Source: Massilia rhizosphaerae
GTDB taxonomy: Bacteria > Pseudomonadota > Gammaproteobacteria > Burkholderiales > Burkholderiaceae_D
Direction of reading: 5' to 3'
Assembly: GCF_016093545.1 (NCBI RefSeq)
Contig: NZ_JADKYX010000001.1
Location: 124,001-188,000, forward strand
DNA length: 64,000 bases
In this document: positions 1-18,150 of the stretch, piece after piece
How positions within the stretch are numbered: the stretch's first letter is position 1
Layout of the letters: each line of letters starts with the position of its first letter
Notes under the pieces: model-generated
Seen by the model: only the letters and a program-made list of their open reading frames with translations
What the model was told of the DNA's origin: nothing
Database searches by the model: none
Program-made: the position numbers and the translations under genes

Positions 1-327
1 ACGCAGGCCGGCATGAGCGCGGAGCAGCTGGCGGCGCAGGCGTCGGTGTCGCCGCAGGAAGCAATGCGGCTGGCGGAGGAACACGTCGCGCGCGAACGGG
101 AACGGCGCGACGCGGAACAGGAACGCGAACGGCGCCACCAACTGGAGCTGCTGGCGCTGCAGAACGACGTCAACAAGGCGGCCCTGGCCACGCAGGCGCA
201 GCTGGGCACGGGCCTGGTCGCGGGCGCGGCGGCGCTGGCGCAGGGCCAGGCGTGCCGGCACGCGGACGCCCAGGCCGGCGACCGTTTCTGCGGCCGCTGC
301 GGCGCACCGCTGCCGGCACGGGGATGA
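1..327 (+). CDS. C-terminal part of a coiled-coil / zinc-ribbon protein, 5' end outside the window
   Basis: The reading frame is open from the first base, so the gene probably starts upstream; an internal ATG at 13 is the first one visible. The visible part has a charged Glu/Arg-rich helix, a small Ala/Gly-rich segment, and a C-terminal zinc-ribbon tail with C-x-H and later CGRCG ligands. Proteins with a membrane or SPFH-type body and a terminal zinc ribbon often end this way, but the body is not visible and the family is not certain. The stop codon overlaps the start of the following kinase gene in an ATGA arrangement, which indicates translational coupling and a shared operon. The zinc-ribbon tail is seen; the link to the kinase is inferred from the overlap. 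Confidence 0.6.
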   Translation, partial: TQAGMSAEQLAAQASVSPQEAMRLAEEHVARERERRDAEQERERRHQLELLALQNDVNKAALATQAQLGTGLVAGAAALAQGQACRHADAQAGDRFCGRCGAPLPARG

Positions 328-2540
328 TGCAGTCGGCGATCGACAAGCTGCGCGAACTGCGCGCGCTGCACGAAGACGGCCTGTTGAGCCGCCAGGAGTT
401 CGACAGCCGCAAGAACGCGATCCTGGACGCGGCCTATCCGGCCGACGCGCCCGCGCTCGCCGACGGGCCTGCGCGGGCCGGCACGGAGATCGGCCTGATG
501 GCCACGCAGGAAATGGGGCCCGCGCACCGGCGCTACCGCCTGGAGCGCCTGATCGCGCAGGGCGGCATGGGCGAGGTGTGGCAGGCGACCGACCTGGCCA
601 CGCACGCGGAACTGGGCCACAGCGCCCAGGTCGCGTTGAAGATCCTGCCGCCGAGTCTCACGGAAAACTCGCTGCACGCCAAGCTCCTGATCGAGGAAGC
701 GGCGCGCGCGCGCCAGCTGGCGCACCAGCATATCGTGCGCGTCTACGACTGGGCGCAGGACCCGGCCACGGGCAGCTATTTCATCATCATGGAATGCCTG
801 GACGGCGAGGACCTCGACGCCCTGCTGGCGCGCGAGGGCCGGCTCGGCCTCGCGCGCGCGCTGGACCTGCTCGCGCCGGTGGCCGATGCGCTCGACTACG
901 CGTGGGAGCGACACGGCCTCGTCCACCGCGACATCAAGCCGGCCAACGTCTTTCTGGCGCGCGGCGGCGACGTCAAGCTGCTCGACTTCGGCATCGCGGC
1001 GCGCGCCCGGGCCGGCGGTCTCGCGCTGGAGGCGCCGGCCGGTTCGGGCACGGCCGGCTACCGCGCGCCCGAAGCGGGCAGCGCCGGGGGCGTGCCGGCG
1101 CGCGCGCTGGACGTGCATGCGGTCGCGGCGATGCTGCATCGAATGGTGACGGGCGCGCTGCCGGGCGGCGACGCCGCGCGCCCCGAGGGCTTGAACGACG
1201 CCCAGTGGCAGGTGCTGCAATCGGGCTGCGCGCGCGACCCGGCGGCGCGTCCCGCCAGCGTGACCGAACTGCTCGCGCGGCTGCGCGCGGCGGACGGTCC
1301 CAGCGCGGACGAGCTGCGTGCCCGCGCCGAGGCCGACGCGGCCCGCGCGCGCGCCGAGCAGGCCGCGCAGGCCGCACGCGACGTCGCCGCGCGCAAGCTG
1401 GCAGAGGCGCGCGCGCAGGCGGAAGCGGCGGCCAAGGCCCAGCTGGACCGCCAGCGCCGCGAACAGGAGCGGGCGGCGAAGGCGTCCGCGGAACAGGCGC
1501 GCGCGGCGCGCAAGGACGCGTTGCGCCAGCAATTGCTGGAACGGCGCGCGGCCGAAGCGGAAAAGGCCAGGCTGGAACGCGAGGAGGCGCAGCGCAAGCT
1601 CGCGCAGGCCAAGGCGGCCGCCATCTACCTCGCCGAGCAGAAGCGCGCCCGGCTCGAAGAGGCGGCGCGCGCGCAAGCCATGCTCGAGCAGCTGCTGCCC
1701 ACGCCCGCGAGTCCCGTGGCCGATACGGAAGGCGTGCTGCGCGACCGTTTCGAGGACGGCGACACCAAGGGTCCGGAACTGGTGCTGCTACCGACGGGCC
1801 GCTTCCAGATGGGCTCCCCGGAGCACGAGCGCAAGACCGCGATGGACGCGGGTTCGCAGCCGGGCTGGCTGGCGCGCGAACTGCCGCAGCACTGGGTCGG
1901 CATCGACAAGCCGATCGCGATGGGCCGCTATCCCGTCACGGTGGGCGAATGGCGGCTGTTCGTCGCGAGCACGGGCTGGCGCCCGAGCGGGGAAGTCGAC
2001 TGGGACGCGCCGGGCTTCGCGCAGACCGACCGCCATCCCGTCGTCGGCGTGAACTGGTTCGACGCGATCCGCTACGTGCGCTGGCTGTCCGAGGTCACGG
2101 GCAAGTCGTACCGGCTGCCCAGCGAAGCCGAGTGGGAATACGCGTGCCGGGCCGGGACGAAGACGGCGTTCTCGTTCGGCGACACCATCTCGACGGACCA
2201 GGCCAACTACGACGGCAATTTCACGTACAACGGCGGCGCGCGCGGCGTGTACCGGCGCGGGACGACGCCGGTCGGCATGTTCGCCGCCAATCCCTGGGGC
2301 CTGTTCGACATGCACGGCAACGTGTGGGAATGGGTGCAGGACGTCGTCCACGACAATTACGACGGCGCGCCGCTGGACGGCAGCGCGTGGGAAGCGGGCG
2401 GCGACCAGGCCCGCCGCATCCTGCGCGGCGGCTCGTGGCTGTACAACCCGCGCTACCTGCGTGCGGCGCTGCGCAACGGGTTTTCGGCCGCGCTGTCGAA
2501 CGACATCGTCGGCTTTCGCGTCGTGCGCGACCTGATGTGA
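324..2540 (+). CDS. Ser/Thr protein kinase fused to a coiled coil and an FGE-sulfatase (SUMF1-like) domain
   Basis: A 738-residue multidomain protein. Residues 4-33 resemble a SHOCT-type short helical motif. Residues about 75-330 are a Hanks-type kinase: glycine loop AQGGMGEVW, the VALK lysine at 106, HRDIKPAN at 201, DFG at 221 and APE at 248. Residues about 335-470 are a long Ala/Arg/Glu coiled coil. Residues about 485-738 are an FGE-sulfatase fold with GRFQMGSP, RLPSEAEWEYA, GNVWEW and RGGSW. The two cysteines that bind copper in genuine formylglycine-generating enzymes, normally just after RGGS, are absent, so this domain is probably a sensor or scaffold rather than an oxidase. No transmembrane segment is obvious. 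The ATG is chosen because it overlaps the preceding stop; a longer frame upstream lies inside the previous gene. Kinase-FGE fusions are known in bacterial signalling and near some type VI secretion loci, but no such machinery is seen here. Confidence 0.9.
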   Translation: MMQSAIDKLRELRALHEDGLLSRQEFDSRKNAILDAAYPADAPALADGPARAGTEIGLMATQEMGPAHRRYRLERLIAQGGMGEVWQATDLATHAELGHSAQVALKILPPSLTENSLHAKLLIEEAARARQLAHQHIVRVYDWAQDPATGSYFIIMECLDGEDLDALLAREGRLGLARALDLLAPVADALDYAWERHGLVHRDIKPANVFLARGGDVKLLDFGIAARARAGGLALEAPAGSGTAGYRAPEAGSAGGVPARALDVHAVAAMLHRMVTGALPGGDAARPEGLNDAQWQVLQSGCARDPAARPASVTELLARLRAADGPSADELRARAEADAARARAEQAAQAARDVAARKLAEARAQAEAAAKAQLDRQRREQERAAKASAEQARAARKDALRQQLLERRAAEAEKARLEREEAQRKLAQAKAAAIYLAEQKRARLEEAARAQAMLEQLLPTPASPVADTEGVLRDRFEDGDTKGPELVLLPTGRFQMGSPEHERKTAMDAGSQPGWLARELPQHWVGIDKPIAMGRYPVTVGEWRLFVASTGWRPSGEVDWDAPGFAQTDRHPVVGVNWFDAIRYVRWLSEVTGKSYRLPSEAEWEYACRAGTKTAFSFGDTISTDQANYDGNFTYNGGARGVYRRGTTPVGMFAANPWGLFDMHGNVWEWVQDVVHDNYDGAPLDGSAWEAGGDQARRILRGGSWLYNPRYLRAALRNGFSAALSNDIVGFRVVRDLM

Positions 2541-2648
2541 CGGGCCGAGCACGATACGCAGCAGCAACTTCAGCGCAGTGACATAATGGAACGGCACGCG
2601 GGCGCTGCCGGCCGTGCCGTCCGCGTCCTTGCAATCGAGGAGGTTGCC

Positions 2649-2753
2649 ATGCGCATTCCCAAGGACATTCAAATCCCCTTCGTCGTGCTGTCGCTGGAAG
2701 CCGTGCTGCTGACCGGCGCCGCGCTGATTTTCCTCGTGCTGCGACCCGGTTGA
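2649..2753 (+). CDS. 34-residue single-span membrane miniprotein
   Basis: A short frame begins with ATG six bases after a strong GAGGAGG ribosome-binding site. The product has a short basic, Pro-containing head (MRIPKDIQIP) followed by about 22 consecutive hydrophobic residues and a three-residue tail RPG. It therefore looks like a small N-in or N-out membrane peptide. It lies 108 bases downstream of the kinase-FGE gene on the same strand and ends seven bases before the stop of the convergent FHA gene. A sequence resembling a -10 box (CATAAT, 2582-2587) lies upstream without a clear -35. Function is unknown. The strong Shine-Dalgarno and the clean membrane profile are the only support. Confidence 0.5.
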   Translation: MRIPKDIQIPFVVLSLEAVLLTGAALIFLVLRPG

Positions 2754-2760
2754 GCGGAGG

Positions 2761-4242
2761 TCACGCGCCCAGCAGGCGGGCGGCCGCGCGGCGGCGGTCC
2801 GCGGTGCGTTCGGCCTGGTCTTCCGGACGGGCGCTGCACGCGAAGCGCACGCGGCCCGTGAACCGGGCGAGGCGTTCCAGCACGGTGGCGGGCCCCAGCG
2901 CCGTGTCCTGGCCGGTGCCGGGGTCGCGGTGCCAGAAACCGCCGTCGCGGTGGAACAGCACCGGCATGCCCGCCGCGCGGGGCAAGGCGCCGCCGCCGGC
3001 TTCCGGTTCGGCGTCCGGCGCGCACAGCACGAAGCATTCGGCGGCACCGCCGGCGTCCACGCGGTGCAGGGTCAGCGCGTGCCCGTGCAGCGCGGTGACG
3101 ACGAACGTCACGACGCCGCGGATGCTGGCCGTCAGCTCGATGCGCATGCCGAGCCTGAGCGGCACCGGCACGTGCTTGCCGGGCCAGACGCCGTCCAGCA
3201 GCAGGCCGTAGCGCGACACGTCCTCGATCTCGAAGCCGCCGCGCGCGGGCCGGACGACGGCGTGGCGCGCGGACAGGCGGCGCGTGAGGCCGTCCCGTTC
3301 CGGACCGTGTTCGCCGTAGTGTTCGAGCAGCAGGTCGGCCTCGGCGCCGGCGGATTCGCAGCGGCCCAGCACGCACTCGTCCAGCGCGAACAGCCGCACG
3401 TGGCGCTGCGCGCCCGCATCCGGTTCCGCGTACACGAGGCAGGCGGCGCTCGCCGGGCACGGATGGGCCGCACGTTCGGCCGGCAAGTCGATTTCGATCA
3501 GGTCCTCGTCCCACGCGATCGTCGGCAGGGCGACGGCCACCTTGCCGCCCGCGTCCGCGCCGAGGTGCAGCTGGGCGATGGAGGCGTTGCGGGCCTGGAT
3601 GTCGATGTCCAGCGCGCCGCCGCCGGACAGGCCGTGCACGCGGGCGATGCCGGCGTCGTCGGCGCTGATGCGCACGTTCTTGTGTGTGGCGAGGAAGGTC
3701 TGGTGGATCTCGCCCAGCGACGCGTCCGGGCGCGGCACGAGCAGCACGAGCGTCGCCACCCACGTGCGCGCGGCGGCCGGCAGGGCGGCGTCGCGCGCGT
3801 GGATTTCCAGGTCGATGCGGTACTGGCCGTGTTCGCGGCCGCGCGACGAGAATTCCACGAACACGGGACGCCAGTCGCCGCGCAGGCTGCGCGTGAATTG
3901 CAGGCGGCCGGCGCCGCCCGGCAGCAGTTGCGATTCCAGTAACACGGTCAGCTGCGGGGGCACGTCGTCCGGCATGCCGCGCAAGTCCAGCTTGATGGCC
4001 TGGCGTCCGCCGGCCGCGCGCGGGTCGAAGCCGCTCACGTGCAGGTGCGGACGGGCTGCGGGCGTGGGCGCCGGGCGGATGGCCGCCGCGCCCTCGGCGC
4101 GCGCCCGTTGCAACAGGTCGAAGCTGGAGCCGAGCAGGTCCACCGCGCCCGCCGGCTGGCGGTGGCCGTGCGCGCACACCGTCTCGCCGGGGGCGACCCA
4201 GACGGTGCAATGCGGGTGGTCGGGACTGCTGCAACGCTTCAT
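2761..4242 (-). CDS. FHA-domain protein with N-terminal Cys/His cluster
   Basis: A 493-residue protein. The first 27 residues carry four cysteine/histidine positions (C4, C12, C23, H25/H27), which suggests a small zinc-binding head. Residues about 60-270 form a region of unknown fold that may read as beta-sandwich modules. Residues about 280-372 match a forkhead-associated domain: VLGR near the start, LSARH in place of the usual S-x-R-H, and DVSRYGLLLDG in place of the S-x-N-G strand. The last 120 residues are not assigned. FHA domains bind phosphothreonine, so the natural role is a reader of one of the two kinases in this region. The gene lies 131 bases downstream of the PP2C gene on the same strand, giving a writer / eraser / reader set. 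The phosphopeptide target is not known. Confidence 0.8.
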   Translation of the reverse strand: MKRCSSPDHPHCTVWVAPGETVCAHGHRQPAGAVDLLGSSFDLLQRARAEGAAAIRPAPTPAARPHLHVSGFDPRAAGGRQAIKLDLRGMPDDVPPQLTVLLESQLLPGGAGRLQFTRSLRGDWRPVFVEFSSRGREHGQYRIDLEIHARDAALPAAARTWVATLVLLVPRPDASLGEIHQTFLATHKNVRISADDAGIARVHGLSGGGALDIDIQARNASIAQLHLGADAGGKVAVALPTIAWDEDLIEIDLPAERAAHPCPASAACLVYAEPDAGAQRHVRLFALDECVLGRCESAGAEADLLLEHYGEHGPERDGLTRRLSARHAVVRPARGGFEIEDVSRYGLLLDGVWPGKHVPVPLRLGMRIELTASIRGVVTFVVTALHGHALTLHRVDAGGAAECFVLCAPDAEPEAGGGALPRAAGMPVLFHRDGGFWHRDPGTGQDTALGPATVLERLARFTGRVRFACSARPEDQAERTADRRRAAARLLGA

Positions 4243-4373
4243 GGGCGGTTATCGGCTCGGCGGTTGGATGGGCGGACGGCGCGCGGGCACAGCTTACGCG
4301 ATTGTAGCCGAGCGCGGCGCCCGCGATTCATTGTTGAGCAAGACTTTTTTCCAAAATGCATCATTTGCAACGG

Positions 4374-5363
4374 TCAGGAACCCGGCAGCGCCGTCTCGTC
4401 GCGTAGCCGGTCGGGGCCGGGGACGCGCACGAGGATCGCGCTGACGTTGTCCGGGTAAAAGAACGCGGCCGGATGCGCGTCGTAGGCGGCCAGCAGGGCG
4501 TGCAGCATCGTGGCCGCGTCGGGCTCGCCCGCCAGCAACTGCGGCCACTGGCCCACCCAGCCGCACGGGTCGGAGCACGACCACAGGCCGTCCGTCGCCA
4601 GCAGGTACGTGCCGCCGGCGCGCAGCGCGAGCGGACGGCGGTCGGCCAGGCCGCACAGCCAGGCCGGCAGGTTCAACGGCGACAATTCGAACAGCGGGTC
4701 GTTCAGCCGCGACGGATCGGCGAACGCGTTCCCGAGCAGGAAGGCTTGCGCCACCTGCGGGCGGTGTTCGCCGTGCACCTGCTGCCACCAGTCTGCCTCG
4801 CCCAGCACGCCGGCCATCGCATAGGCGGTGGCGGGCACGTGGTCGACAGTCAGCGGCGTCGCCCGCGCCGGCGTGATGTCGTACAGGCGCGAATCGCCCA
4901 CGTGGTACAGCAGCGGCGCCTCGTCCGCGCGCAGTTCCAGCAAGGTGAGCGTGGTGCCGGGGCGCGGGCCCGGTGCGTCGGCGAAATGGCGCTGCAGGTC
5001 GGCGTGCAGGGCGTCCAGGCGGCGCGCCAGCTCGGCCCCGGTGGCGCACGGCGGCAGCGCGAGCAGGCCGGCGACGACGGCTTCCGCCGCCTCCCGCCCG
5101 TGGCCGTGGCCGCCCATCCCGTCCAGCACCGCGAGCCGGGCGTGGCCGCGACGCCAGCCGGCCAGGCGCCGGCGCTGCACGGCCTGGTCCTGCAGCCAGG
5201 CCGCGTTGCCGTCCGCGTCGATCAGCAGCAGATTGTCCTGGTTTTCCGCGCGCAGGCGCGGGCCGGCGCCCAGGCGCGAGCAGGCGGCGACGTCGAGGGC
5301 GCCGAAGCGCATCCCGGCGATCCAGGCGCCGGGGTCGGAAACGGGAGGGGGCGAGTTCGGCAT
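4374..5363 (-). CDS. PP2C-family serine/threonine protein phosphatase
   Basis: A 329-residue protein with the metal-dependent PP2C signature in order: ENQDN near residue 40, LDGMGGHGHG near 80, GTTLTLL near 135, VGDSRLY near 155, ATDGLW near 262 and DNVSAI near 308. The aspartates that hold the Mn/Mg ions are therefore present and the enzyme should be active. The size is slightly above the 240-260 residues of stand-alone PppA/Stp1 enzymes; the extra length is mostly an insertion of about 60 residues between the VGDSRLY and ATDGLW motifs. No membrane segment is seen, so it is probably cytosolic. It is followed by the FHA gene on the same strand and most likely reverses phosphorylation by the neighbouring kinases. 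Start at ATG 5363; a longer upstream frame would be out of the family alignment. Confidence 0.92.
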   Translation of the reverse strand: MPNSPPPVSDPGAWIAGMRFGALDVAACSRLGAGPRLRAENQDNLLLIDADGNAAWLQDQAVQRRRLAGWRRGHARLAVLDGMGGHGHGREAAEAVVAGLLALPPCATGAELARRLDALHADLQRHFADAPGPRPGTTLTLLELRADEAPLLYHVGDSRLYDITPARATPLTVDHVPATAYAMAGVLGEADWWQQVHGEHRPQVAQAFLLGNAFADPSRLNDPLFELSPLNLPAWLCGLADRRPLALRAGGTYLLATDGLWSCSDPCGWVGQWPQLLAGEPDAATMLHALLAAYDAHPAAFFYPDNVSAILVRVPGPDRLRDETALPGS

Positions 5364-5404
5364 CTTCGTACTCTAACCGGAAATGCCGAAACGCCAAGCG
5401 CCGA

Positions 5405-6652
5405 TTAGATGGGGTTTTTATGCCTACCCGTGAGTAATACGGCCGCGTTCACGAGCACGCAGGCGCCGGCCGCCGCCATCGCGCAGCGCACGCCGCACGC
5501 ATCCGCGATCCGGCCCCAGAACAGGCTGCCCGCCGTGTAGCCGCCCGCCATCACGACGAGGTAGATCGCGAGCGTCCGGGCGCGCACCTCCGCGGGGAAC
5601 GACAGCTGGGCCGTGGCGTTCAGGGTCGACACGACGGCCGACCAGGCCATGCCGCCGCACACGATCAGCGGGACCAGGCGGGACAAGGTGTGCAGGAACG
5701 GCATCGCGGCGAGCATCGCGCCGTACACGACGAGCGCGCCGGCCAGGATGTTGGTCTTGTCGATGCGCGCGCGGAGCGCGGGCAGGCAGAACGCGGCGAT
5801 GACGGCGCCGCCGCCCAGGCTGCCCATCAGGGTGCCGAACACGCTGGCGTCCATGCGCAGCACGTCGCGCACGAACACGGGCAACAGCCCGGCGAACGCG
5901 ATGGTGGCGAAGAACACGGTCGCCACGTTGCGCAGGATGCGGCGGTAGCGCGGGCAGCCGAACGCCGTGCGTACGCCTTCGCCCAGGCGCGCGCCGTAGC
6001 CCGCGCAGGGTTTCACGTGCGTGCGGTCGTCGCGCCACCAGGCGCGGTAGATCGCGAGCAGGCCCACGAACGAGATCGCGTTGAGGAGGAACAGCGGGCC
6101 GGGACCGATCCACTTGAACAGGACGCCGCCCAGCGCCGGCCCGAGGATCGCGGCCGTGTTGTACGACAGGTTGTTGAGGGTCGCCGCCGCCTCGACTTCG
6201 TCCGGCTCCACGAGCCCGGACATCGCCGCCTGCCACGCCGGCCACATGAACGCGGACCCGCAGCCGATGCAGAACAGCACCGCCAGCACGGCGGCATGGG
6301 GCGCGTGGCCGCTCGTCACCAGCGCGGCCAGCGCGCACGCGCAGCCGGCCATGAACAGATTGCAGAAAAACAGGAATTTCGGGCGGTGCACGGCATCGGC
6401 GACGACGCCGGCGAACAGCGCGAACAGGAAGATCGGGATGTACGTCGACGTCTGCACGAGCGTCGTCGTGGATGCGGAATGCGAACTGGAGGCGATCAGC
6501 CAGGCCGACGCGAACGTCTGGATCCACGTGCCGAGGTTCGAGACCAGGTTGGCGCACCACAGATGCCGGTAGCGCGCATGGCGCAGCGGTTGCGTCAGCG
6601 GGACCCGGCGCCGGGCCGGCGCGGCCGCCGGGGTGAAGGTGGATGTCGTCAT
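5405..6652 (-). CDS. MFS transporter of the MFS_3 / EntS-like exporter family
   Basis: A 415-residue protein with about 12 hydrophobic segments and the layout of the DUF894/MFS_3 group (EntS-like exporters). It starts with a basic, Pro-rich cytosolic tail, followed by RYLWC-type and NLVSNLGTW motifs at the first helix. The substrate cannot be inferred; relatives export siderophores or drugs, and no siderophore genes are seen here. It sits between the phosphatase and the acetyltransferase and shares no obvious function with the phosphorylation genes. It reads divergently from the GNAT gene, with 107 bases between them that must contain both promoters. Confidence 0.85.
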   Translation of the reverse strand: MTTSTFTPAAAPARRRVPLTQPLRHARYRHLWCANLVSNLGTWIQTFASAWLIASSSHSASTTTLVQTSTYIPIFLFALFAGVVADAVHRPKFLFFCNLFMAGCACALAALVTSGHAPHAAVLAVLFCIGCGSAFMWPAWQAAMSGLVEPDEVEAAATLNNLSYNTAAILGPALGGVLFKWIGPGPLFLLNAISFVGLLAIYRAWWRDDRTHVKPCAGYGARLGEGVRTAFGCPRYRRILRNVATVFFATIAFAGLLPVFVRDVLRMDASVFGTLMGSLGGGAVIAAFCLPALRARIDKTNILAGALVVYGAMLAAMPFLHTLSRLVPLIVCGGMAWSAVVSTLNATAQLSFPAEVRARTLAIYLVVMAGGYTAGSLFWGRIADACGVRCAMAAAGACVLVNAAVLLTGRHKNPI

Positions 6653-6759
6653 CGACCCAGTCTACGGGCGCGGCCCGGCCGGGTCAACGCGGCAGCAACA
6701 AGGTTTGCGTGGTTTTCCCAACGTGACGTTTCGACAAGCCGCTGTGCTATCGTATCGCC

Positions 6760-7230
6760 ATGCCGATACGCCCGATGGAACACGCCGACATCCCGGCCGC
6801 CGCCGCCGTGCTGCGCCGCGCCGCCGAAACCTTCTTCCTGCACGAATCCGCGCCGGAGGACGCCGCAGCCTTCCTCGCCCAGCACGACGCCGCGGGCCTG
6901 CGCCGCAACCTGGACGCCGGCTTCGTCTACCACGCGGCCATCGAGGACGGCGTGCTGGCCGGCTTCGTCGGCGTGCGCGGCGGCACGCACGTGTTCCACC
7001 TGTTCGTCGATGCCGCGTACCAGCGGCGCGGCATCGCGCAGGCGTTGTGGGAGGCCGCGCGCGCGCAAGCCCTCGTGCCCGGACACCCGGGCGTCTTTAC
7101 CGTGAACGCATCGAATTTCGCCGTGCCGTTCTATGCGTCGCTCGGCTTCGAGCGCACGGCGCCCATGCAGGCCGACAAGGTGCCCTATAACCCGATGCGC
7201 CTGTCAATGCCGCTCGTCGGTGCGGCGTAG
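6760..7230 (+). CDS. GNAT-family N-acetyltransferase
   Basis: A 156-residue single-domain acetyltransferase. The acetyl-CoA binding motif A is seen as LFVDAAYQRRGIAQALW, followed by the motif B helix NASNFAVPFYASLGF, which is typical for the family. The acceptor substrate is unknown. The 3' end overlaps the 3' end of the convergent SH3-like gene by 27 bases, so the two transcripts are antisense to each other at their ends. The start ATG is the first in frame after the upstream region shared with the divergent MFS gene. Confidence 0.88.
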   Translation: MPIRPMEHADIPAAAAVLRRAAETFFLHESAPEDAAAFLAQHDAAGLRRNLDAGFVYHAAIEDGVLAGFVGVRGGTHVFHLFVDAAYQRRGIAQALWEAARAQALVPGHPGVFTVNASNFAVPFYASLGFERTAPMQADKVPYNPMRLSMPLVGAA

Positions 7231-7659
7231 CCACAGGCTGCTCGCCCAGCCTTCGACCGCGCCGCCGCCGACGCGCACGCGCCACCAGTCCCCGTCCGTC
7301 GCACCCGTCGCCGTGACGATCGTGCCCGCCGCCAGCACGCGCATGCGGGCGGCGCGCACGCCGCGGTCCTCGCGCAGGTTCAGGTCGTCGACGACGCGGT
7401 AGCGCGCGCCGGGGGCGGGGCCGATGGTGGCCACCGCCGCCGTCCGGACGGCGGCCGCCGCGGTCGCCGCCGCCGGCGCGGGCGGCAGCAGGGCGGAGAA
7501 CAGCAGGCCGAACGCCAGCGTGCCGCCGCCCAGCACGCCCAGCGCCCGCAGATTGGGCCGGCGCCACCAGGCGCGCGGCGTGCACCACGCGGCCAGCACG
7601 AGCGTGAGCGCGAACGCGACGCACCAGCGGAGCCACGGTGCGATGTCGGCGAAGTCCAT
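7204..7659 (-). CDS. Membrane-anchored SH3-like domain protein
   Basis: A 151-residue protein with two predicted transmembrane helices (residues about 7-26 and 40-60), an Ala-rich linker and a C-terminal bacterial SH3-type domain (about 85-148): DDLNLREDRGVRAARMRVLAAGTIV and DGDWWRVRV, ending in WASSLWL. Bacterial SH3 domains commonly bind peptidoglycan or cell-wall peptides. It is the last gene of the minus-strand operon and begins seven bases after the stop of the 526-residue protein. With the FtsW-like gene in the same operon, a role at the cell wall is plausible, but that is inferred. Confidence 0.75.
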   Translation of the reverse strand: MDFADIAPWLRWCVAFALTLVLAAWCTPRAWWRRPNLRALGVLGGGTLAFGLLFSALLPPAPAAATAAAAVRTAAVATIGPAPGARYRVVDDLNLREDRGVRAARMRVLAAGTIVTATGATDGDWWRVRVGGGAVEGWASSLWLRRTDERH

Positions 7660-7666
7660 GCGTGCC

Positions 7667-9247
7667 TCAGGCGTCGAAGCGCAGCACGTAATGGCCCGCG
7701 ACGAGATGGTGTCCCACCGGCAGGCGGTACGGCTGCTCCGGCGTCGCCGCGTCGATCGCCGCCACGAAGTCCAGGTGCTCGTCCAGGTGGTACAAGGCCT
7801 GCGTGGGCGACAGCCGGGCGATCAGCCAGGCGTCGGGCGCCGCTTCGAAGCTGAACGCGTCGCGCGAGAGCCCCAGGCGGTCGGCGCTGGACGGCGGCGT
7901 GCCGGTCGCGTTGCGCAGGAAGCGCGGCGAATCCAGCACGCGCAAGGCCGCCAGCATGGGCGCGCCCCGTCCGAACGTGAAGCGCGCGCCGCTCGCCACC
8001 GGCAGCGCCGGCGGCTGCGGCAGCATGAGCAGGGCGCAATAGCGGTCGGCCAGCGCGGGAGCGCAGGCGGCCAGTTCCAGGCGCGTGCCGTCGACGGGAC
8101 TGAAGCTGGCCGGCACCGCGATCCGCTCGCGGCCGGCCGGTGTGATGGCCCGCAGTGCGTCGTGTTCGTCCACGGCGAAGCCGATGACGGCGTCCGCCGC
8201 CTGCGCCGACGGGACGAAGGCGCGGTTCAGGCCGACCTCCAGCACTTGCGCGCCCGTCTCGCGGTAGCGCGACAGCCGCGGCAGCGCGAGTGCCGCGAGG
8301 GCCACGCGCCGGCGTGGGACCGGGGCGTAGGTCGCATCCGGCGCCGCCTCGGCCGGCTGCACCGATGGGGTGCGCGCGAGCGGCACGGCCGTCAGTTCCG
8401 GGTCGGGCGCGCGCGGCTTCCAGACGGCGGGACGGGCGGACGGCGAAGCGCCGGCCGCGCGCGCGGCGGCGGGCGCGACGACGGGGGCCGGCGGCCGCGC
8501 GGTGCCCGGCATGCGCTGGGGCGTCACGCGCAGCAGCAGGCGCAGCGCGGCGCCGGTGGCGTCGACGGCGCCGCGGCGCGACTTGATCGTCCAGTAGCCG
8601 GCGGCCGCGTCCCAGCTGCAGTCGAAGGCGTCCTTCGGGCGCACCTGCACTTCCAGCGGCGCGTCCGGGCCGTCGTTGATGACGAGGACCGCGCCGTCCG
8701 CGCCGAACGGCCAGCCCGGCGCGGCGTAGGTCGCGTCGTTCTCGTCGTGTCCGATCAACGTCAGTCTCTGGTTCGGGTAGATGGGGCAGACGGTCTTCCA
8801 CACGGCGCTGTCGCGCGACACGCTGACCGTGTACTGCACGGTTTCACCCGGCGCGGGCAGGTAGACGGCGTGGCCGAACTTGACCTCGACTTCGCCCGGC
8901 TCCAGGCGGTCGGCGCCGATGACGTGGTAGCGGACGTCGTCGCCCTGCAGCAGGTCGCCGAAATCCTTCTGGTGCAGCGCCGCCAGGCCTTGCGCGAGGT
9001 CGCGCACGCGGGCGCCGCGCGTGAGGTGGCGGTCGTCGTCGACCTCTTCCTGCGGCAGCATCAGCGTGATGTGCGAAAAGCAGCGCACGGGGGCGCGCCC
9101 GCGCTGCTCGCGCGGCGTGCGTTCCAGCAGGTCGCGCAGCAGCGGGCGGCGCGCGAACAGCGCCATTCGGGGCGCCTGCCAGATCGCGTGGGCGTCGAAG
9201 ACGTCGTTGATCTTGCCTAGGGCTTCATGTTGGACGTAGACCGGCAT
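7667..9247 (-). CDS. Protein of unknown function with a possible degenerate C-terminal FHA-like domain
   Basis: A 526-residue cytosolic-looking protein that I do not recognise. Residues 1-230 form a conserved-looking region with many beta-strand-like stretches (for example LMLPQEEVDDD, GEVEVKFGHAVYL and RLTLIGHDENDATY). Residues about 235-310 are a Pro/Ala-rich linker. Residues about 330-415 are another folded block. Residues about 420-526 recall an FHA fold, with FTFGRG at its start and a later LSRDAF, but the match is weak. No signal peptide or membrane helix is seen. The ATG is preceded by a good GAGGAGAACG ribosome-binding site and lies 31 bases inside the end of the FtsW-like gene, so the two are translationally coupled. 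An open frame continues upstream but runs antiparallel to no other evidence and overlaps the FtsW-like gene completely. Confidence 0.7.
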   Translation of the reverse strand: MPVYVQHEALGKINDVFDAHAIWQAPRMALFARRPLLRDLLERTPREQRGRAPVRCFSHITLMLPQEEVDDDRHLTRGARVRDLAQGLAALHQKDFGDLLQGDDVRYHVIGADRLEPGEVEVKFGHAVYLPAPGETVQYTVSVSRDSAVWKTVCPIYPNQRLTLIGHDENDATYAAPGWPFGADGAVLVINDGPDAPLEVQVRPKDAFDCSWDAAAGYWTIKSRRGAVDATGAALRLLLRVTPQRMPGTARPPAPVVAPAAARAAGASPSARPAVWKPRAPDPELTAVPLARTPSVQPAEAAPDATYAPVPRRRVALAALALPRLSRYRETGAQVLEVGLNRAFVPSAQAADAVIGFAVDEHDALRAITPAGRERIAVPASFSPVDGTRLELAACAPALADRYCALLMLPQPPALPVASGARFTFGRGAPMLAALRVLDSPRFLRNATGTPPSSADRLGLSRDAFSFEAAPDAWLIARLSPTQALYHLDEHLDFVAAIDAATPEQPYRLPVGHHLVAGHYVLRFDA

Positions 9248-11574
9248 GATTCGTTCTCCTCTAAATCTAAAGATTGGCTGCTGGCGGCAGCGGCACCTAG
9301 CAGGGGGCAGATGAAAAACAGCAGGTGCGAGCCGCCCGCCGACAAAAAGCTCATCGGCTGGCCCATCACCGGGAAGATCGCGAGATTCGTGCCCCACGAG
9401 AGCAGGAAGTGGCCGAATGCGAACGCGGCGCCGCCGGCCAGGAAAAAGCAGCGCAGGCGCGCGAGCCACGCGACGCGGAAGTCGCGCGCCCGTGCCCCCG
9501 CCAGCCAGCAGCGCGCGGCCAGGTGCAGCAGCGCGGCGAGGAACGTGGCCTGCAGCAGCCACAGGCCGACGGCCGCCGCCAGGCCGTGGCGCTGCAGGAA
9601 GAACGACGCCGCGAAGTCGTCCTGCACGGCCGGGATGCGCAGCGCGAAGCCGGGATCGAGCCCCAGTTGCGCCACGCCGAACAGGCCGTCGGCGCCGCGC
9701 CAGCCGCCTTGCGCGATGGCGCGCGCGCCCATCAGCAATTGCTGGCCGGTGTGCGGGTGGGTACCCGGGTCGAGCCAGACGAGGAAGCGGTCCGCATAAA
9801 AATCCCAGCGCGCGATGCCGTCCGCGCCGGCGCCGCGCAGCAGCGCCACGGCCAGCACGGCGCACACGCCCACGCCCGCGAGCGCGCACGCGGCGCCGCG
9901 CCGGCCCGTGGCCAGCGCCTGCGCCAGCATCATCGTGCCGGCCCACAGTGCCAGCAGCACGAGCGGCGAATAATCGTCGACCTGCACGAGGGCCACCCCG
10001 AGCAGCAGCATGAACAGCAGCGCGGGCGCCGCGAGCCGCAGGCCGCGGCGCCACGCGCCGCCCGGCGACGGACCCTCGGCGCACGCGAGCGCCAGGCAGT
10101 GGGCGGACAGGGCGGCCAGCGCGAACTTGGCGAATTCCACGGGCTGCAGGTCGAACACGCCCGTCTCGTCGCCGTACGCCACTTGCAGCAGCAGCGCGAC
10201 GAGTGCGGCGCCGGTCAAGAGCAGCAGCGCCAGTTCGATGCGGGCCTGGGCCAGCGGGCGCGCCGGCCGCGCGAGGTGCGCCAGTGCGACGGCGCCGGTG
10301 CCCAGCGCCAGCAGGGCCGCCGTCTTGTGGAAGTCGCGCAGCCAGGCGGTGTCCGGCGCGCCCAGGCCCAGGTCGAGCTGCGTCAGCAAGCCGACGGCCA
10401 GCAGCGGCAGCGCCACCGCGAGCGCGGGATCGAGGCGGCGCGGGGCCGCCAGCGCGAACGCCAGCGCGGCCCAGGCGACGAGCAGCCCGATGCCCGCGCC
10501 GCCCGGCGCGCCGGTGCGCTGTAGCCAGAACAGGACGATGCCGGCGCCGGCCAGCAGCAGTGCGCCGCCGGCCGCCGCGCCCGCCCGCAGGCGCGTCCCC
10601 GCGCGCGCGGAGAAGGCCGCCGCGAGGGCGCCCGCGCCGGCAAGGACGAGGATGGCCAGCAGCGGCGCCGTCGCCCGGTCCGGCAGATCCCACGGCGCGC
10701 GCCGGGCCCACGTCCACGCGACGCCCGGCGGCAGATGCAGCGCCGTGTCCGGGTACAGCGCGACGTGAGCGGCGGGGCGCAGGTGCAGGACGTCGCCGTT
10801 CGTCGCGAGCAGCAGGCGGGTGCGGCCCGCGACGAGGGTCTGGCCGCCGTCGAGCCGGAGCGGGCGGCCCGCCAGCAAGGCGTCGCGGCCGTCCTCGGCC
10901 AGCAACAGCGGCACGCCCGGCGCGGCGGCGAGAACGAGGCCGTCGCGCCCCTGGCCGCGCGCGATGGTGGCGGCGGGCGCCGGCAGGCCGGCGACGGCGA
11001 TGCGGTTGCCGCAATCGAGGTTGCCGCCGAAGACGAGCGGACGGGCGACGGCGAGCATGCCGGGCGCGATCCGGTTCCACAGGGCGGCCAGGCGCGTGCC
11101 GACGCGCGCGTCCGGACACGCCGGCTGCGGCCTGCCGTCGCGGCGCAGCAGGGCGCCGTCGTAGCGCCAGGCCGTCGCGCCGCTGGAAAACGCGACGGTG
11201 CGGGCATCGGCCGCATCGACGCCCGCGCGCAGGGCGCCGACCTGGAAGCGCTGGCCCGGCGCCAGCACGACGCTGCCGGCGCGGCGCCGGCGCGCGCCAT
11301 CCTGGACGAGCAGCGGCGCGCCGGTGCCGTCGTCGGCCGCCCACCAGCTGCCGTCGGCGGCGCGGCCAAGGCGGAGATGGCCGCCGTCCCTGGGCGGCGC
11401 GCCGAGCGCCGCGTGGTCGAGATCGAGCGCCGCGCCCCGGGCCAGCACGATGGCGACCCGCGCCGGCATCCACGCGGCCGGCGCGCGCAGCAGCGCGATC
11501 ATCTGCAGGGTGCACAGGGCGGCGAGCAGGATGGCGGCGGCAAAGCGCACCGTGACGTGCGGCGCGCGCATCAT
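9217..11574 (-). CDS. FtsW/RodA/SpoVE (SEDS)-family membrane protein with a large N-terminal ectodomain
   Basis: A 785-residue protein, about twice the usual SEDS length. One transmembrane helix (about 13-33) is followed by an extra domain of about 260 residues (35-298) rich in short beta strands with repeated LARG/LAED/LLAT patterns, probably periplasmic. From residue 300 there are about 12 hydrophobic segments. SEDS landmarks are present: QPVEFAK (477-483) for QPSEFAK, GQQLLMGARAIAQGGWRG for the loop-4 amphipathic helix, PAVQDDF near 650 for the PE-x-HTDF motif containing an aspartate reported essential in RodA, and MGQPMSFLSAGGSHLL near 740 for the last helix. SEDS proteins polymerise glycan chains from lipid II. 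No partner class B PBP is nearby. The start overlaps the kinase stop by ATGA, so this SEDS protein and a kinase are co-translated. Confidence 0.85.
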   Translation of the reverse strand: MMRAPHVTVRFAAAILLAALCTLQMIALLRAPAAWMPARVAIVLARGAALDLDHAALGAPPRDGGHLRLGRAADGSWWAADDGTGAPLLVQDGARRRRAGSVVLAPGQRFQVGALRAGVDAADARTVAFSSGATAWRYDGALLRRDGRPQPACPDARVGTRLAALWNRIAPGMLAVARPLVFGGNLDCGNRIAVAGLPAPAATIARGQGRDGLVLAAAPGVPLLLAEDGRDALLAGRPLRLDGGQTLVAGRTRLLLATNGDVLHLRPAAHVALYPDTALHLPPGVAWTWARRAPWDLPDRATAPLLAILVLAGAGALAAAFSARAGTRLRAGAAAGGALLLAGAGIVLFWLQRTGAPGGAGIGLLVAWAALAFALAAPRRLDPALAVALPLLAVGLLTQLDLGLGAPDTAWLRDFHKTAALLALGTGAVALAHLARPARPLAQARIELALLLLTGAALVALLLQVAYGDETGVFDLQPVEFAKFALAALSAHCLALACAEGPSPGGAWRRGLRLAAPALLFMLLLGVALVQVDDYSPLVLLALWAGTMMLAQALATGRRGAACALAGVGVCAVLAVALLRGAGADGIARWDFYADRFLVWLDPGTHPHTGQQLLMGARAIAQGGWRGADGLFGVAQLGLDPGFALRIPAVQDDFAASFFLQRHGLAAAVGLWLLQATFLAALLHLAARCWLAGARARDFRVAWLARLRCFFLAGGAAFAFGHFLLSWGTNLAIFPVMGQPMSFLSAGGSHLLFFICPLLGAAAASSQSLDLEENESCRSTSNMKP

Positions 11575-12530
11575 GCGGCGCTCCGGAAGAGGACGGGGGC
11601 GCGGTCCAGGTCTCGTGCCGCGCGCGCGATCAGGCGGCTGACTTCCAGCGCGTGGCGCGGACGGTGTTCCGGACGGGGCGCCAGCAGGGACCGCAGCAGG
11701 ACCAGCAAACCGTCGTGGTCGCGCGCGGGCACGCGCCCGAGGAACAGCGCGGCCTCGTCGGGCGCGAGGATCGCGGGCATGGGCCGCAAGGCGGCGGCGC
11801 CCGCGGGGCCGTGGGTGCGGTAGGCGTCGGCGCAGGCGGCGCAATAGCGCAGCGGCACGGCGGTGACGATGGTGTAGAGCAGGGCGCCCAGTGCGAAATA
11901 ATCGCTGCGCGCGTCGGTGCGGTAGCGGCCGGCGTCGTCGGGGAAAAATTGTTCCGGCGCTTGCCAGGCGGCGGTGCCCGCGTAGGAATGGGCCGTGCTG
12001 TTCGCCAGCTGCCGGTTCGTGCCGAAATCCGCGAGTTTCAGCGCGCCCGCGCGCGCGTCGATGAGCAGGTTGGCGGGTTTCAGGTCGAGATAGCGCCAGC
12101 CGTATTGATGGACTTTCGCGAGCGCTCCGTTGACCTGGGCCGTCCACGCCAGCGCTTGGCCGACGTCCGGGCCCGCGCCGCGGCTGCGCAGCGTCGCCAG
12201 GTGGGCGGCGAGGTCGCCGTCGAGCAATTCGAGCGCCAGCGCGGGCAGGCCGTCGTGGTCGCCGCTGTCGAGCAGGCGCACGATGTGGCGCTGGTCCCAC
12301 GGCTGCAGGCCGCGCAGGAAGGCGATCTCGGCATCGAAGCTGGCGCGCCACAGCGCGCGCTGCGGCGGCAGGGCCTGGTCCATCTGCGCGCGGTTGACGA
12401 GTTTCACGGCCGCCGGTGTACCGTCCAGCACGGATGCGGCGCGCCAGACCTCGCCGTAGCTGGAGCTGTTCAACCGGGCCTGCAGACGCCACGCGCCCGC
12501 GGTCAATGTGATGATGTCGCCTGCTTCCAC
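11571..12530 (-). CDS. Ser/Thr protein kinase with non-canonical catalytic loop
   Basis: A 319-residue Hanks-type kinase without transmembrane helices. The lysine of subdomain II is K43 (AAVKLV), the catalytic loop is YLDLKPANLL (Asp149), DFG is present (LADFGTN) and APE is WQAPEQF. Two deviations are visible: the usual HRD is YLD, and the glycine loop is LNSSSYGEVWRA. Since the catalytic aspartate, lysine and DFG remain, activity is likely but may be tuned. The C-terminal lobe ends at the protein terminus, so there is no sensory module. It is the first gene of a four-gene operon (kinase, SEDS-like, unknown, SH3-like) and overlaps the next gene by four bases. It probably phosphorylates one or more of the co-encoded proteins; that is inferred. 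Confidence 0.9.
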   Translation of the reverse strand: MEAGDIITLTAGAWRLQARLNSSSYGEVWRAASVLDGTPAAVKLVNRAQMDQALPPQRALWRASFDAEIAFLRGLQPWDQRHIVRLLDSGDHDGLPALALELLDGDLAAHLATLRSRGAGPDVGQALAWTAQVNGALAKVHQYGWRYLDLKPANLLIDARAGALKLADFGTNRQLANSTAHSYAGTAAWQAPEQFFPDDAGRYRTDARSDYFALGALLYTIVTAVPLRYCAACADAYRTHGPAGAAALRPMPAILAPDEAALFLGRVPARDHDGLLVLLRSLLAPRPEHRPRHALEVSRLIARAARDLDRAPVLFRSAA

Positions 12531-16638: not shown

Positions 16639-16986
16639 TGCGCAACCCTTTCGTCATGTTTCATGTCTTGCGGTCTCGTATGACCATCGATCGCCGCGCT
16701 TGGTTGCGACGTGCGATACGACCTAGGTCATGACGACGTGCGCGGTAGTCGTTCTCAGCGCTTTCTCCGAGCTTGGGATATGGCAATTGTTAAATACGCG
16801 CCGCCCCATACGCCCGTCTTTCACGCCAAAAGTTTGCAATTGCAAGTCTGTAAGTCGTTGATTCCTTGATGAAATATTGTTTAGTAATTCGTTATTTTGG
16901 GAAATTTATTTTAAAAAAGATTGAACTTAGGCAGTTTCCTAGCCTCAAAGGGTTACCTTCACTCACTTGATGTTAGGAATCTCCAG
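16639..16986. other. 348-base non-coding region, AT-rich toward the beta-helix genes
   Basis: No gene seen. The last 200 bases are clearly AT-rich compared with the flanks (for instance the run around 16900-16920). The final 66 bases form the leader that is duplicated at 20056. The promoters of the DUF1566 gene and of the first beta-helix gene must lie here, but no convincing -35/-10 pair was identified. Confidence 0.6.
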
Positions 16987-16990
16987 ATGA
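16921..16990 (+). repeat. Duplicated leader of the beta-helix genes, copy 1
   Basis: The 66 bases before the ATG match, with few changes, the 67 bases before the third paralogue at 20056-20123, including the shared core CAAAGGGTTA and TTCACTCACTTGATGT. This shows the duplication included the 5' regulatory region. Confidence 0.8.
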
Positions 16991-18150
16991 AAAAACGCGC
17001 TACCTTTGCTTCGAACGTTCGTCTCAACACCCTGCTGTGCTGCAGTGCCGCGGTTCTCCTGGCCGCAGGCGGCAACGCCCTGGCAATGACCACGCCGGCC
17101 ACCACTTATAACTATTATGTGTCGCCGACCGGTTCGGACTCGGCGGCCGGCACGAAGGCCGCGCCGTTCAAGACCCTGGCCCGCGCGGCCAAGTCCGCCA
17201 CCCGCCCGGGCACGACCGTCTGGGTCGCGCCGGGCACCTACGCCGGCGGCATCAAGACGACGGCCAGCGGCACGAGCTCGGCCCGCATCTACTGGGTGTC
17301 GACGACGAAGTGGGGCGCGAAGATCGTTCCGCCGTCCTACTCCTACAACAACAACGCGTGGGACAACCGCGGCAACTACGTGAGCATCATCGGCTTTACC
17401 GTCGACGGCACGTACTCGCACAGCGGCACGAAGTGGACGCACGGCATCTACACGGGCGGTTCGTACGGCATGATCGCCGAGAACCACATCCACCACATCG
17501 CGAAGTCCGTGACCTGCACGAGCGCCGGCGGTTCGGCGATCGGCGTGGACAGCTATTACCACGGCGTGATGACGGACGTGATCAGCAACGTCGTCCACGA
17601 CATCGGTCCGGCCGGTTGCCGGTACGTCCAGGGCATCTATTTCAGCACGTCGGGTTCGATCAAGAACAACCTCGTGTACCGCGTGGGCGCGGTGGCGATC
17701 CACCTGTGGCACGACGCGAACCACGTGACCATCACCAACAACACGGCGACCTCGTCGACCTTCGGCATGGTGGTCGGCGGCGGCAATTTCTATTACACGA
17801 CGGCCGGCGCGAACTACATCTTTGTTGCGAACAACATCGTGTACGACAACGTCTACGGCATCTCGGAACAGGGTGTTACGGGCAAGCAGAATGTCTACAA
17901 GAACAACCTCGTCTACAAGAACTCGACGTACAACATCTCGCTGCGCAATGGTCTCGTGGCCACGGCGACGGTCAGCTCGGATCCCCTGCTCAAGGCTTAC
18001 TCGCGCACGGCGACGACGCCCGACTTCCACCTGACCAGCAGCTCGCCGGCAATCGGCCGCGGCACCGCGACGAATGCCTACCCGACCGACCTGGACGGCA
18101 AGCCCCGTAACTGGTCGACGGGTTTCGACATCGGAGCCTACCAGCACTGA
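16987..18150 (+). CDS. Exported parallel beta-helix protein, paralogue 1
   Basis: A 387-residue protein with an N-terminal signal peptide (residues 1-33, ending in NALA). Residues about 40-70 are a DUF1565-type entry, YYVSPTGSDSAAGT-x-AAPFKTL. Residues about 75-330 form a right-handed parallel beta-helix with regularly spaced N-N-x-V / N-N-I-V turns such as IKNNLVYRVGAVAIHLW and ITNNTATSSTFGM. Such folds carry pectate lyases, polysaccharide epimerases and other surface or carbohydrate-active proteins. Catalytic residues of a specific lyase are not evident. It ends in PRNWSTGFDIGAYQH, a common C-terminal cap. The start is set by the signal peptide and AGGAAT-like ribosome-binding site; a longer frame through the leader is considered unlikely. 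Confidence 0.85.
   Translation: MKKRATFASNVRLNTLLCCSAAVLLAAGGNALAMTTPATTYNYYVSPTGSDSAAGTKAAPFKTLARAAKSATRPGTTVWVAPGTYAGGIKTTASGTSSARIYWVSTTKWGAKIVPPSYSYNNNAWDNRGNYVSIIGFTVDGTYSHSGTKWTHGIYTGGSYGMIAENHIHHIAKSVTCTSAGGSAIGVDSYYHGVMTDVISNVVHDIGPAGCRYVQGIYFSTSGSIKNNLVYRVGAVAIHLWHDANHVTITNNTATSSTFGMVVGGGNFYYTTAGANYIFVANNIVYDNVYGISEQGVTGKQNVYKNNLVYKNSTYNISLRNGLVATATVSSDPLLKAYSRTATTPDFHLTSSSPAIGRGTATNAYPTDLDGKPRNWSTGFDIGAYQH

Follow-up and report, generated by a model that had tools for sequence, protein, structure and literature searches.

A candidate third SEDS-class B PBP pair encoded with Ser/Thr phosphosignaling genes in Massilia rhizosphaerae and related Oxalobacteraceae

A 64,000-nucleotide window of the 7.0-Mb Massilia rhizosphaerae genome (C1:124001-188000) opens on a cluster of genes for Ser/Thr kinases, a PP2C-type phosphatase, FHA proteins, and a SEDS-family protein. 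We think it fairly likely that this locus encodes a third, dedicated peptidoglycan synthase, composed of the SEDS protein and a class B penicillin-binding protein (PBP), which has its own Ser/Thr phosphosignaling set and is switched through a 526-residue protein, here called U526. In sequence comparisons, the locus displays recognizable parts with conserved motifs, conserved operons, co-occurrence of the SEDS and PBP genes, and one case in which both genes are missing together. The pairing of the SEDS protein with the PBP is well supported, and the accompanying kinase/phosphatase/FHA/SPFH module probably controls the synthase.

The genes PBP-A417-B191-C348-D337-SPFH-K1 run on the plus strand as an operon that is headed by the PBP gene and ends in K1. 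They converge with two minus-strand blocks, K2-SEDS-U526-SH3 and PP2C-FHA493. The PBP-side genes lie in the 20 kb immediately left of the window (L004). Coordinates below are those of the window unless L004 or L007 is named.

L004:11144-14221, plus strand: class B PBP (PF00905, 55.1 bits), outside the window
L004:14322-15575, plus strand: A417, conserved protein, outside the window
L004:15568-16143, plus strand: B191, conserved protein, outside the window
L004:16137-17183, plus strand: C348, conserved protein, outside the window
L004:17180-18193 (= L007:9180-10193), plus strand: D337, two-repeat protein, outside the window
L007:10234-12327, plus strand: SPFH/Band 7-like protein of 697 aa (PF01145, 25.5 bits; cutoff, 23.6), the 3' end of its gene being window positions 1-327
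324-2540, plus strand: K1, soluble Ser/Thr kinase with a C-terminal SUMF1/FGE-like domain (PF00069, 110 bits; PF03781, 197 bits)
2761-4242, minus strand: FHA493, FHA-domain protein with an N-terminal Cys/His cluster (PF00498 in family members)
4374-5363, minus strand: PP2C-type phosphatase (PF13672, 17.1 bits, below the cutoff; conserved motifs)
7204-7659, minus strand: SH3, 151-aa protein with two transmembrane (TM) segments and a bacterial SH3 domain (PF08239, 36.8 bits)
7667-9247, minus strand: U526, 526-aa protein of FhaA-like architecture (AlphaFold2 [AF2] model and fold search)
9217-11574, minus strand: SEDS protein, third in the genome (PF01098, 60 bits; cutoff, 26.4)
11571-12530, minus strand: K2, soluble Ser/Thr kinase (PF00069, 95.4 bits)

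The SPFH gene, whose start lies 1767 bases to the left of the window, has a 4-base overlap with K1. A preliminary description of the window had listed two Ser/Thr kinases, a PP2C-like phosphatase, an FHA protein, and a SEDS protein as clustered, and the Pfam matches and coordinates agree, with homologs supplying the match for the PP2C and FHA493. The overlaps that it reported are also present in the window sequence: 4 bases (ATGA) between K2 and the SEDS gene and 31 bases between the SEDS gene and U526. Its statement that the cluster is without a penicillin-binding protein proved wrong; the PBP gene had gone unseen because it lies wholly to the left, ending 5.8 kb short of the window.

The SEDS protein carries the SEDS fold and an Asp equivalent to FtsW D297. 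PF01098 matched all 40 of the SEDS members searched (E of 0.1). In an AF2 model built from the window protein and 39 homologs (pLDDT, 80.7; pTM, 0.81), TM1 is followed by a beta domain (residues ~35 to 291) and then by the SEDS core (375 to 771). Residues 380 to 771 resembled FtsW (8bh1; Z, 22.5; 4.2 Å over 323 residues), and the model also matched RodA (6pl5; Z, 21.4) and the RodA of a RodA-PBP2 complex (8tj3; Z, 21.3), with all FtsW/RodA fold matches falling between Z scores of 19.5 and 22.5. A DDF motif is present in 74/74 homologs and QPxExAK in 72/74. The Asp of DDF aligns with that of the TDF motif in the two canonical SEDS proteins of the genome, and D297 of FtsW is treated as a putative catalytic residue in the available portion of one report (PMC8765783). 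Genes for the canonical proteins, which we take to be FtsW and RodA, lie on C23 and score 331 and 340 bits to PF01098. NCBIfam equivalog cutoffs were not reached by the locus protein, which scored 53.3 of the required 337.5 bits for ftsW and 46.9 of 336.7 bits for rodA. Judged by its sequence, it is a SEDS family member that is neither FtsW nor RodA.

The beta domain that follows TM1 spans ~250 residues and holds two invariant cysteines (C153 and C188). Because these suggest a disulfide, we place the domain on the outer side, and its sequence thus suggests an extracytoplasmic location. It consists of two homologous halves (hhalign, 78.5%; E, 1.7e-5). Pfam FHA matched 2/40 SEDS members (best E, 8.1e-4, position in the protein not located), and the Yop-YscD family, which we take to be FHA-like, matched 2/40. 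The only fold match listed for the domain, a weak one (Z, 7.3), was 1wv3, presumably the FHA pair of EssC. We call the domain FHA-like on the basis of the two Pfam FHA matches, the internal repeat, and the weak match to 1wv3; the assignment is not proven. FHA493 scored low by hhalign (12.6% and less) against both the SEDS N-terminal repeats and the FHA domain of U526.

The PBP encoded at the head of the plus-strand operon has a transpeptidase domain in which SxxK, SxN, and KTG are all present. STFK and S[LV]N occur in 15/15 homologs and KTGT in 14/15. Its profile matched 4mnr and 7kis in the PDB, and the best NCBIfam model was pbp2_mrdA (2.6e-21), far under that model's cutoff. Transpeptidase was the sole Pfam family over its cutoff, with no glycosyltransferase domain, and no dimer or pedestal family of Pfam matched at E values up to 1. 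Hydropathy predicted one TM segment in 12/15 homologs and two or three in the rest. The protein also carries an extension of ~500 aa. The catalytic motifs, the TM segment, and the lack of a glycosyltransferase domain class it, from sequence, as a class B PBP.

The distribution of the two enzymes argues that they act together. A search of 195 genomes of the family, the M. rhizosphaerae genome included, found the SEDS protein in 35 genomes, which represent 4 of 44 genera and 12 of 13 own-genus genomes. A PBP profile (E, 1e-30) matched 36 of the 195, namely, all 35 SEDS genomes and G091, an assembly of ~610 contigs in which the PBP gene is cut by a contig end. Thus, the PBP was found in 35/35 SEDS genomes although the two genes sit in separate operons. 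D337 matched 38 of the 195: the 35 SEDS genomes, G091, G182, and, weakly, G001. G182, from the own genus and with a completeness rating of 100%, has a locus (L230 and L231) that is without SEDS and PBP only; K2, U526, SH3, PP2C, FHA493, K1, SPFH, D337, C348, B191, and A417 are all kept. Genome-wide searches of G182 found neither SEDS (5/8 candidates scored) nor PBP (4/20 scored). Absences in these and the wider searches are not proofs, because few candidates were scored per genome (4 for PBP, 5 for SEDS, and 11 for D337 in the family searches and at most 2 to 5 in the class and phylum searches). Massilia terrae (L122) has a gap between K2 and U526 as in G182 and is taken to be the same genome. 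The strongest argument for the enzymes acting as a pair is this joint absence of two genes from different operons, with eleven neighbors kept. Because of the shared ancestry of related genomes, these counts are not independent events, and the co-loss is a single event. G182 is in effect a natural knockout, a clean loss of the SEDS and PBP genes that leaves eleven partners in place.

The gene order is also conserved. Stretches of 18 to 40 kb surrounding the SEDS gene were retrieved from 21 of the 34 other genomes, giving 22 neighborhoods with our own, and in 18 of these the order from K2 to PBP lay within one stretch. In G148 the fetched stretch ends at B191, and a PBP profile search located the PBP just past that point; G138 and G003 carry the PBP block on a different contig, the contig with the SEDS gene coming to an end. 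Of the 35 SEDS genomes, 30 have SEDS and D337 on one contig and 5 have them on separate contigs. When 84,980 species genomes were scanned with a U526 alignment, 114 relatives emerged, 80 of which were kept: 46 in Massilia, 16 in Duganella, 6 in Rugamonas, 4 in Pseudoduganella, 3 in Janthinobacterium, 2 in Telluria, and 3 in other Oxalobacteraceae. The preliminary description had suggested an Oxalobacteraceae-type host, which fits the nearest named relatives by U526 (Massilia; identity up to 89%), and had called for a check of the gene order in other Oxalobacteraceae; the set is conserved in relatives and is not unique to this genome. The 80 loci contained U526 (80), SH3 (80), SEDS (78), FHA493 (78), PP2C (76), and K2 (75); counts for the outer parts K1 (56), SPFH (42), and D337 (25) are limited by the 10-kb flank and by contig ends. 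With start codons picked by script, SEDS-U526 spacing was at most 60 bases in 73/73 loci with both frames whole, U526-SH3 spacing was at most 60 bases in 78/78, and K2-SEDS spacing was at most 60 bases in 46/72, 31 of which have the 4-base overlap. A literature search, directed in part at FhaA and SEDS proteins in general and covering few subscription papers, found no published report of this locus.

Outside the family, matches were few. Among 274 genomes of the class, U526 turned up in three: our own, and G262 and G393, which belong to one genus. In G262 a SEDS homolog (E, 9.5e-123) adjoins U526 in otherwise ordinary surroundings, and in G393 the contig begins just before U526. An extension-only frame in G262 lies at L171 ~9642-10139 on contig C10, close to the contig end. 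Among 398 genomes of the phylum, a SEDS profile matched our own, G018, and G832. G832 encodes a long transpeptidase and then a long SEDS protein, directly adjacent (L169:9001-14690). On the few candidates scored per genome, long SEDS proteins therefore occur beyond this locus as well. Three large neighbors of the G832 pair (789, 1179, and 496 aa) have no Pfam match.

The 526-residue protein of the preliminary description is, by its AF2 model and fold search, a second FHA protein of FhaA-like build. The model (pLDDT, 77.8) comprises an N-domain, a disordered linker (~247 to 309), and a C-domain with an FHA fold that matched the FHA domain 3gqs (Z, 8.8) and the FHA domain of FhaA (3oun; Z, 7.7). 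Foldseek returned nothing at an E value of 0.001, and its best matches were FHA domains, starting at 0.0047. The GR and SR of FHA domains bind phosphothreonine, and the motifs FGR and G[LI]S[RK] were found in 79/79 U526 homologs. No TM segment was predicted in 22/22 homologs. No Pfam family matched any of the 40 U526 members searched, and the FHA domain filled the fold lists, which thus barely covered the N-domain.

Both kinases retain catalytic motifs. HRD[LI]KPxN and DFG are present in K1 in 45/45 homologs of the 80-locus set and in 18/19 of the 22-genome set (the exception is G018), and GG[MFL]G[QE]V is present in 39/45. K2 has DLKPxN and DFG in 74/74 homologs, with the His of HRD in only 3/74. 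No TM segment was predicted in 19 K1 and 22 K2 homologs, and Pfam found no PASTA family in either kinase. Formylglycine-generating enzymes need a catalytic Cys pair; CxxxxC occurs in the SUMF1-like domain of K1 in 0/45 and 0/19 homologs, and by that criterion the domain is probably not such an enzyme. The phosphatase of the window is under the cutoffs (PF13672, 17.1 versus 24 bits; NCBIfam Stp1, 4.6e-9), and DG[MV]GGH, GDS, and DN[LVIMF][ST]A each occur in 76/76 homologs. PF00498 matched 19/25 FHA493 family members (best E, 2e-7) and not the window protein; SxRHA is found in 69/71 homologs, and 13/22 have one hydrophobic stretch. PADLOC, run on 10 locus proteins with antiphage defense in mind, matched only K1 and K2, as kinases, and a defense role was set aside.

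The remaining parts are less readily named. The conserved part that the preliminary description left unnamed is the 151-aa membrane SH3 protein (80/80 loci), whose loop charge would put the SH3 domain on the outer side. The name SPFH rests on PF01145, barely above its cutoff, and hhalign of the family against the Band 7 proteins of relatives gave only 14.7%. C348 was considered as a second SPFH protein and rejected (hhalign, 1.7%). The two halves of D337 align with each other (probability, 97.5; E, 5.8e-12). By eye, its second repeat has invariant Ser243 and Lys289 with Lon-like spacing. A Lon-like protease was rejected for D337, hhalign against the Lon_C and RadA profiles of relatives being below 1%. 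PDB profile searches with D337, U526, FHA493, C348, and B191 gave nothing significant.

A major facilitator superfamily (MFS) transporter gene and a short frame that looks GNAT-like also lie between the named parts in the window. The MFS gene, found in 30/80 loci and not found in 7/22 neighborhoods, is accessory even though it falls inside the locus coordinates. Between FHA493 and K1, relatives (e.g., L045/L046) carry a variable insert of ~0.2 to 17 kb with secreted and, by eye, pirin-like genes; it was rejected as a common locus part, as it varies across the six genomes inspected. Farther along the window, 16921-18150 and 18305-19909 (both plus strand) are two adjoining genes that closely resemble each other and encode secreted proteins with a beta-helix-like repeat appearance. 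Genes similar to these also lie next to the G182 locus (L230, ~2143-3546 and ~4341-5486). In G001, two opposite-strand genes adjoin the A417-to-SPFH block (L232/L233).

From these parts we infer polymerase activity, complex formation, the substrate, and phosphocontrol, together with roles for SH3, the outer SEDS domain, and the SPFH block. The SEDS protein, with its catalytic Asp kept, would polymerize lipid II, and the class B PBP, with STFK, SxN, and KTG kept, would cross-link the product. U526, predicted to be cytoplasmic and FhaA-like, would dock on phosphothreonine made by K1, K2, or both and, once docked, recruit or gate the synthase; the PP2C would reset this switch. SH3 and the outer, FHA-like domain of the SEDS protein may touch the wall or a partner, and the A417-B191-C348-D337-SPFH block could be a membrane scaffold or sensor. 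A more specific version, which we put forward tentatively, is that a SEDS polymerase with an extracytoplasmic tandem FHA-fold domain and its partner, a long class B PBP, form a regulated third synthase in Gram-negative bacteria. A cytoplasmic reader resembling FhaA would hold it together with an SPFH scaffold, and the two kinases and the phosphatase would switch it, for a special wall structure or for repair of the wall under stress.

Several observations weigh against a dedicated synthase under the control of this module. PP2C was not found in G133 and G106, both among the 18 K2-to-PBP stretches (2/22), and G106, the KTGT exception, has its PBP gene split over two frames. The SEDS-U526 pair of G262 and G393 is without a known PBP partner, because the sole hit of the PBP profile was a short one, to the extension, in a 166-aa frame of the former, and the latter gave no match. 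Because G182 keeps the kinases, PP2C, FHA proteins, and SPFH block, the module may have another use or be decaying; its persistence without the enzymes suggests other targets. G001, from another genus, carries the A417-B191-C348-D337-SPFH block without a kinase, SEDS, or PBP nearby, and the block is therefore a module of its own. The SEDS-PBP contig of G832 has no kinase match. G045 has its PBP block on a separate contig, and no part of the block is present in the 23 kb fetched beyond FHA493, so that the two blocks lie apart. Together, G182, G001, G832, and G045 count against exclusive control by the module. They speak for a view that we regard as doubtful overall, in which SEDS and PBP do make up a third synthase and the kinase, PP2C, FHA, and SPFH genes are a separate signaling or membrane-stress module that merely shares the locus. 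The two operons are on different contigs in 5/35 genomes, and in G045 no contig end explains the split. This view is opposed by the tightness of the K2-SEDS-U526-SH3 block, by the position of the PBP at the head of a block ending in K1, and by the presence of D337 in all 35 SEDS genomes.

Two further explanations would change the function itself. Trios of kinase, PP2C, and FHA genes in Proteobacteria usually serve type VI secretion systems (T6SS), and here, as in the PpkA/PppA/Fha trio, the three lie in one neighborhood. The locus might thus be imagined as a T6SS-type posttranslational switch that became separated from its secretion genes, and VipB was found in 32/34 other genomes with the system. 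However, the three VipB copies of the window's genome are all on other contigs, and two of the 34 (G139 and G003) have no VipB match, one of them consisting of 2 contigs and rated 100% complete. The Pfam scan of the locus genes found no T6SS family, the locus holds a SEDS protein and a PBP, and nothing we saw ties it to a T6SS, in line with the preliminary description, which saw no secretion gene alongside; we consider this origin very unlikely. It seems just as improbable that the product made or ligated by the SEDS-like protein is, as for WaaL, a glycan other than peptidoglycan. Two features that count against a peptidoglycan synthase speak for this: the next fold match of the model is the O-antigen ligase WaaL (7tpg; Z, 13.0), and the protein has lost the ARRWL loop motif that both canonical SEDS proteins of the genome carry. 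Nevertheless, the FtsW/RodA matches are much stronger, the catalytic Asp is kept, and a transpeptidase co-occurs in 35/35 SEDS genomes.

Linked kinase, phosphatase, and FHA control of wall synthesis is already known in mycobacteria and their kin. If a phosphoswitched third synthase is indeed encoded here, the same logic arose or was assembled in Gram-negative bacteria, the Oxalobacteraceae, on a third SEDS-class B PBP pair. Phosphogating of a SEDS enzyme is hard to study where the system is essential; the present locus, in environmental bacteria, would offer a model that is probably nonessential, as both enzymes are lost in one relative.

Compared with RodA-PBP2 and FtsW-FtsI, the locus proteins are alike in the SEDS core fold, the catalytic Asp, and the class B PBP motifs. 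In contrast, they fall far under the equivalog cutoffs and are without the ARRWL motif, the SEDS protein has extra TM segments and an FHA-like tandem domain, and the PBP has its ~500-aa extension.

The closest counterpart is the Mycobacteriales operon fhaA-fhaB-pstP-rodA-pbpA-pknA-pknB. In the portions available of two reports, wall growth in mycobacteria is under the control of the same kinds of genes (PMC3989709, PMC11898655); according to the latter, fhaA shares an operon with rodA, pbpA, pknA, pknB, fhaB, and a phosphatase gene, and FhaA has an N-terminal globular domain, a long linker, and a C-terminal FHA domain. U526 is predicted to be built likewise. Both loci encode a SEDS protein, a class B PBP, two Ser/Thr protein kinases, a PP2C, and two FHA proteins, so the likeness to an actinobacterial pkn-pstP-fha-rodA cluster drawn in the preliminary description holds, PBP included; with a PBP in all 35 SEDS genomes, it is stronger than had been thought. 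The differences are also clear. The genes form two convergent operons here and one there, the kinases lack TM segments and PASTA domains and K1 has a SUMF1-like domain, and the SEDS protein and PBP carry long extensions. An SPFH protein, an SH3 protein, and four uncharacterized proteins are additional. The genome also has two canonical SEDS genes, and both locus enzymes are gone in one relative. By sequence, the locus is therefore like the actinobacterial pkn-pstP-rodA-pbpA-fha locus in its parts list and is not a member of it, having no PASTA kinase and two operons.

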